From Oscillatoriales cyanobacterium (GTDB lineage Bacteria; Cyanobacteriota; Cyanobacteriia; Cyanobacteriales; Microcoleaceae), in assembly GCA_004292955.1 (NCBI GenBank), contig RDXX01000039.1, positions 62,001 to 126,000 on the forward strand: a DNA stretch of 64,000 nucleotides. Reading direction: 5' to 3'. Positions within the stretch are counted from its first letter, which is position 1, and each line of letters starts with the position of its first letter. This document shows positions 41,839-42,278 of the stretch, in pieces. The translations under genes and the position numbers were made by a program. The notes below the pieces were generated by a model, which made no database searches, had not been told where the DNA came from, and worked only from the letters and a program-made list of their open reading frames with translations.

Positions 41839-42278
41839 GTCAGTAACTCAGGGAATCAACGCCACTGAGCTTGTAAGAGTAATCGAGCAAGCTGTACTGA
41901 CGGGCCTCAGACTTTCGAGGTCTACGTTATTTGAGTCAGGACACTCCTTGAATGCGACGCTAGTTTTCCGCTCTGTCGCTTGTAGTTAAACAGTCTTAAA
42001 GTCACTCTCGTCAGTGCTGCAAGCCTCACAAGCTCTTATAACATTGACCGACAAGCGAACATTACCCCGCTTTCTTAGGCTCCATCAGGAGCAAACATTA
42101 TGCGTACAGGGTTGTAAGGTTTGAGGTGGTAATTGTCCCATCGAAAGTACATTACAAAAGTACACCTGATCGAACAACCCCAAGGCGGTAATGGAAAGAT
42201 TCAAGGCGATTGAAATCGCCTGGTCGTTTTCCTCTCAGGTCTTTCATACTCTGAGTTTCCCACTTACCTAGTGTTTTT
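41839..42278 (+). ncRNA. HEARO/IscB-omegaRNA-like structured RNA, standalone (copy B), in hetR leader
   Basis: Collinear conserved blocks with 9763-10127; ends GTTTCCCACTTACCTAGTGTTTTT immediately before ATGA of hetR. Confidence 0.77.

Follow-up and report, generated by a model that had tools for sequence, protein, structure and literature searches.

A standalone HEARO element between the Shine-Dalgarno sequence and the start codon of hetR in a Microcoleus genome

A 440-bp element of the IscB-associated HEARO family parts the hetR ATG from its native Shine-Dalgarno sequence in a Microcoleus genome. Among the developmental regulators of filamentous cyanobacteria, hetR is the best known, and IscB is a relative of Cas9. 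The element is very probably a non-autonomous IscB-family (HEARO) insertion sequence, devoid of iscB, that transposed to a position immediately 5' of the hetR ATG. Elements of this type are already known; the hetR copy is a further example with a notable target.

Identity of the element and its family in the genome

The element occupies positions 41839-42278 of the window (the whole 64-kb stretch of DNA analysed), with its 3' end flush with the hetR start, ATGA. An earlier note on this DNA had set these limits correctly to the base. The parts of the locus and of a second copy at xthA are as follows.

41796..41816, + strand: host leader hairpin GGAGGATGAAAAGATGCCTCC, conserved before hetR in both Microcoleus and Kamptonema
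41819..41838, + strand: left flank, host hetR leader with the native Shine-Dalgarno GGAG inside; in empty-site relatives the same sequence runs straight into GTG-ATG
41839..42065, + strand: HEARO/IscB omega-RNA scaffold, standalone copy (RF02033, 100.2 bits; 52 of 67 model pairs standard)
42066..42254, + strand: element interior from the omega-RNA to the right end, without iscB (two-copy alignment)
42204-42221, within the interior segment: subterminal hairpin AGGCGATTGAAATCGCCT
42255..42278, + strand: right end, GTTTCCCACTTACCTAGTGTTTTT, flush with ATGA and the same in other copies
42279..43184, + strand: hetR, intact, 301 aa, start codon directly after the element (NF009718, NCBIfam HetR, E 1e-175)
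9763..10127, + strand: second HEARO element, 365 bp, flush with the xthA ATGA (RF02033, 140.3 bits; right end)
10128..10913, + strand: xthA (exodeoxyribonuclease III), start codon directly after the second element (TIGR00195, E 3e-93)

Covariance-model search (cmscan) established the HEARO/IscB omega-RNA identity that the earlier note had proposed: both copies matched the full RF02033 model above the Rfam gathering cut-off of 83 bits. The match at hetR (E 2e-19) covered model positions 1-211, and the omega-RNA of the xthA element, 9763-9978, scored better (E 4e-29). The two copies are collinear, as the long shared blocks picked out in the note had indicated; their likeness extends beyond the RNA as far as a common right end, and both terminate in CCCACTTACC(G/T)AGTGTTTTT followed by ATGA. 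The right end of the hetR element, which has CTAG where most right ends have CGAG, recurs in 16 standalone copies of its own genome and in 40 of 40 copies sampled from the genus. No sigma-70-like promoter was found inside the element (41200-42400). A terminator reading of hits in the element (e.g., 42204-42221) is not claimed, because most copies share the right-end hairpin, those in essential-gene leaders included.

The omega-RNA of the hetR copy looks partly decayed and is among the more degenerate scaffolds of the genome. It retains 52 standard pairs versus 59 in the xthA copy (67 covariance-model pairs), and three of the five pairs of its pseudoknot are non-standard as aligned. Searches of the whole Microcoleus genome (7.29 Mb, 163 contigs) returned 31 HEARO matches, 23 of them over the cut-off, among which the hetR copy ranked 22 of 31.

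No iscB lies beside the hetR-copy omega-RNA, either in the element or in the 64-kb window, as the earlier note had also said; the copy is therefore classed as a standalone omega-RNA element and not as a complete OMEGA system. The genome-wide search for iscB that the note had called for gave 10 RRXRR (IscB) matches, every one on a contig other than the window's; eight contain an open frame of appreciable length, and two lie where a contig ends. One of them (contig C68) is an intact IscB of 423 aa with RuvC and HNH domains (NF040563, E 1e-139), which matches solved IscB structures. Its complete element (1592 bp) runs from the omega-RNA through this IscB gene to a right-end hairpin and TTTTT, then ATGA, and is the autonomous counterpart, with the same architecture, of the element at hetR. 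All 17 copies of the genome that were compared (16 standalone copies whose right end could be recognised, plus the C68 IscB element) abut ATGA or GTGA, and the genes downstream include argG, xthA, fusA, and hetR. In its 2009 description, HEARO was reportedly already found to insert before ATGA/GTGA.

These features are those of HEARO RNAs and OMEGA systems: a full-length covariance match, RTGA at the right end, and many genomic copies, most without an adjacent iscB, together with full iscB elements in the same genome. The hetR copy differs in having no iscB, in lying between the Shine-Dalgarno sequence and start codon of hetR, in its partly lost scaffold pairing, and in 3 nt missing at its junction. 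HEARO RNA is carried in the 5' regions of IscB (PMC9755519). Elements of the IS200/IS605 type and their non-autonomous derivatives are likewise similar in clean insertion beside a fixed tetranucleotide, without target duplication, and in a subterminal hairpin, which here lies in most copies 57-60 nt inside the right end and has a stem that varies in a compensatory manner; the hetR element differs in that it holds no transposase, and its mobilising enzyme is putative. The genome has 13 Y1_Tnp matches, any tie of which to the HEARO family is putative.

Empty sites and a possible guide at hetR

The insertion is established by comparison with the closest sisters. Their hetR loci, named Microcoleus/Tychonema, read uninterrupted CTATTTCGGAGATT-GTG-ATGAAAAATGAC, where the present genome has CTATTTCGGAGATT-[440 bp]-ATGAAAAATGAC, and the empty site is contiguous (GGAGATT-GTG-ATGA). 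HEARO was absent at hetR from all 29 other genomes of the genus, which bears out the mobile arrival proposed in the earlier note. Rfam scans of 77 of the 79 named hetR loci, more distant cyanobacteria included, found none, a few of these loci holding just a short upstream stretch.

Compared with a perfectly clean insertion at these empty sites, 3 nt (GTG) are missing from the junction at hetR. The empty site, GTGATGA, contains two overlapping RTGA motifs, and the GTG was lost either with the insertion or later. This loss, the fusion of the xthA copy to a start codon as well, and the iscB of the genome were points absent from the earlier note. When the flanks of 14 other elements were joined and sought across the genus, many proved to have a contiguous empty site there, the best being that of the C68 IscB element (130/130 identical and contiguous in a relative). 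The family thus inserts cleanly 5' of RTGA without duplication, a target rule seen in full at several copies, from which the hetR copy deviates by its missing GTG.

The left end of the element encodes the omega-RNA, and the right end bears the subterminal hairpin. RTGA is the target (TAM) of the family and coincides at many genes with the start codon and the base after it; insertion beside it is clean, without target duplication. In the mechanism that we propose, the element would have been mobilised in trans, by a Y1-type transposase for movement and by IscB for retention. The insertion has displaced the native hetR leader 440 nt upstream and made the right end of the element (TTTTT-ATG) the ribosome-proximal leader.

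IscB takes the ~16-17 nt 5' of the scaffold as its guide, and a 3' TAM adjoins the target (PMC9640706). By these rules, the left flank (41819..41838) would be the 5' guide of the hetR-copy omega-RNA; by position this guide would be the hetR leader, so that cleavage by an active RNP would strike empty hetR alleles and spare the filled one. The hetR copy might then be an active guide RNA with which a trans-acting IscB cleaves empty hetR alleles, to the element's own retention or spread (homing). We consider this possible but doubtful. The left flank does match the hetR leader of close relatives, where it is followed by GTGA, a valid RTGA, so arranged that 5' guide and 3' TAM accord with the IscB rule, and with an intact iscB elsewhere in the genome, a nuclease acting in trans is possible; yet the scaffold is degenerate versus most copies (as its score, rank, and pairs show) and may no longer work, the weakened pairing argues mildly against an active guide, and the insertion occurs in no relative examined, hence no spread was seen. 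Gene drive by TnpB, a sister nuclease, has been shown in plasmids and is a precedent for homing (PMC11870625). The TnpB omega-RNA drives are alike in that the guide comes from the insertion flank and only empty alleles would be cut; they differ in using TnpB, not IscB, with the guide at the other RNA end, and in that activity, putative for the hetR copy, was shown for TnpB (PMC11870625).

The hetR leader after insertion

In relatives, the native hetR Shine-Dalgarno (GGAG/GGGG) stands at the usual distance from the start. The host hairpin GGAGGATGAAAAGATGCCTCC, which forms a stem in the predicted fold, is now 462 nt from the hetR ATG versus 25 nt without the insertion. Directly preceding ATGA, the element forms the proximal leader of hetR, which upholds the earlier note on this point as well. 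The anti-Shine-Dalgarno duplex of this new proximal leader is -1.8 kcal/mol, versus -6.6 kcal/mol for the native leader of the nearest relative and -5.7 kcal/mol for the others. A weakening of Shine-Dalgarno sequences by insertion in general was rejected, with an equal mean energy before and after (-2.45) over 26 distinct start-codon copies; the loss is therefore particular to hetR and a few other copies. Neither the new nor the old ribosome-binding region showed remarkable local folding (z about 0). Because leaders of this kind precede essential genes, the right end must permit translation, and because the leader swap is tolerated at many core genes in the genus, hetR is probably still translated, its expression retained and perhaps reduced.

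A conserved GGAGG...CCTCC hairpin (41796-41838; sister leaders L044-L069) contains an ATG at 41809 that in empty-site relatives shares the reading frame of hetR and might give an 11-residue extension or a leader peptide; with the insertion, this frame is broken. The upstream leader ATG is out of frame with hetR in a more distant relative (L070), given which a HetR N-terminal extension was set aside.

The window holds further features. Two tandem patX-like genes lie upstream of hetR (40073-40300 and 40980-41198, + strand), just over the NCBIfam PatX cut-off (NF047413, 32 bits versus 30; motifs RGSGR and RGTGR). The heptamer GTCAGTT forms a perfect array (8.6 copies, 43184-43243) that begins at the hetR stop codon. 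A match to the nitrogen-stress-induced RNA NsiR1, here in a Microcoleus, was found at 56059-56116 on the - strand (RF02399, 49.7 bits; cut-off, 39).

The family has also reached hetR in another lineage. Genome G008 (L179 and L183; G008:C127) has a Tychonema-like hetR leader, different from the type described above, in which a family right end (GGCTAAAGCCGCTTAGTTTCCCACTTACCGAGTATTTTT then ATGA) takes up the ~75 nt that immediately precede the hetR ATG. No HEARO match was found upstream of this right end. As a query, the 75-nt stretch found the right end of elements genus-wide, with 26 matches in G008 itself. The remnant is apparently an independent hetR insertion, the left part of which has since been lost.

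A function in hetR control could be read into these leaders: the element would have been co-opted so that the omega-RNA in the hetR mRNA leader, alone or with a trans-acting IscB, controls hetR translation. This we think very unlikely. The proximal leader of hetR is indeed the element, the genome has an intact IscB, and a family remnant lies at the hetR ATG in the second lineage, but that lineage keeps the right end only, and the full element is found in one genome only, with no conservation that would show selection. The weakened omega-RNA pairing also counts against co-option, as does the occurrence of the same kind of leader at unrelated genes, which points to general tolerance. That the RNA is instead an ancestral hetR leader has next to no probability: position alone speaks for it, no other hetR locus examined has HEARO, copies are scattered through the genome at unrelated genes, and the empty sites in relatives refute it.

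Gene starts as targets in the genus

At least one other insertion of the family is shared. A HEARO element stands before fusA at the same site in the present genome (L013), in G012 (L195), and apparently in G023 (G023:C739); this insertion, at an essential gene, is older and shared across genomes, for G023 apparently.

Forty right ends were sampled from other members of the genus by similarity to the G008 right end. All 40 were flush with RTGA (39 ATGA and 1 GTGA), and 29 started an open reading frame (ORF) of at least 75 aa; when this sample was pooled with the own-genome copies and de-duplicated, 34 of 52 distinct copies did so. The gene families at the start codon include tyrS, tig, rplM, psbD, an allophycocyanin-like subunit, rpmJ, secG, and hisG, in addition to fusA, seen in the present genome; several of these assignments rest on partial reads of the gene. 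As a baseline, the window has 216 RTGA sites that either fall outside called genes or mark the start of one, and 22 of these (10%) are gene starts; of all its RTGA sites, 19% open an ORF of at least 75 aa. Selection against insertion within genes cannot alone account for the start-codon excess, which may in part reflect ascertainment (leader right ends stay conserved) together with such selection. The apparent genus-wide preference for gene starts is interesting, and the size of the excess is uncertain, because the sample favours well-conserved right ends. A literature search found no publication that describes IscB elements inserting at start codons in cyanobacteria.

Tentatively, and with more doubt than conviction, we suggest that the IscB-family elements of Microcoleus target gene starts (RTGA) and that their right ends evolved as portable, largely Shine-Dalgarno-independent leaders. 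These would have repeatedly replaced the ribosome-proximal leaders of core genes without killing the genes (hetR twice, fusA, rplM, rpmJ, psbD, tig, tyrS, and secG), and some, possibly that of hetR, may respond to IscB binding.

At hetR, a leader conserved in the genus has had its ribosome-proximal part replaced by a mobile guide-RNA element. About two thirds of the sampled copies lie exactly at the start of an ORF, and several of the genes are essential and highly expressed. It can thus be tested whether an RNA-guided mobile family has come to use gene starts as safe places to land and reshapes 5' UTRs, and the natural pairs of filled and empty alleles could be used to measure the effect of insertion on expression.
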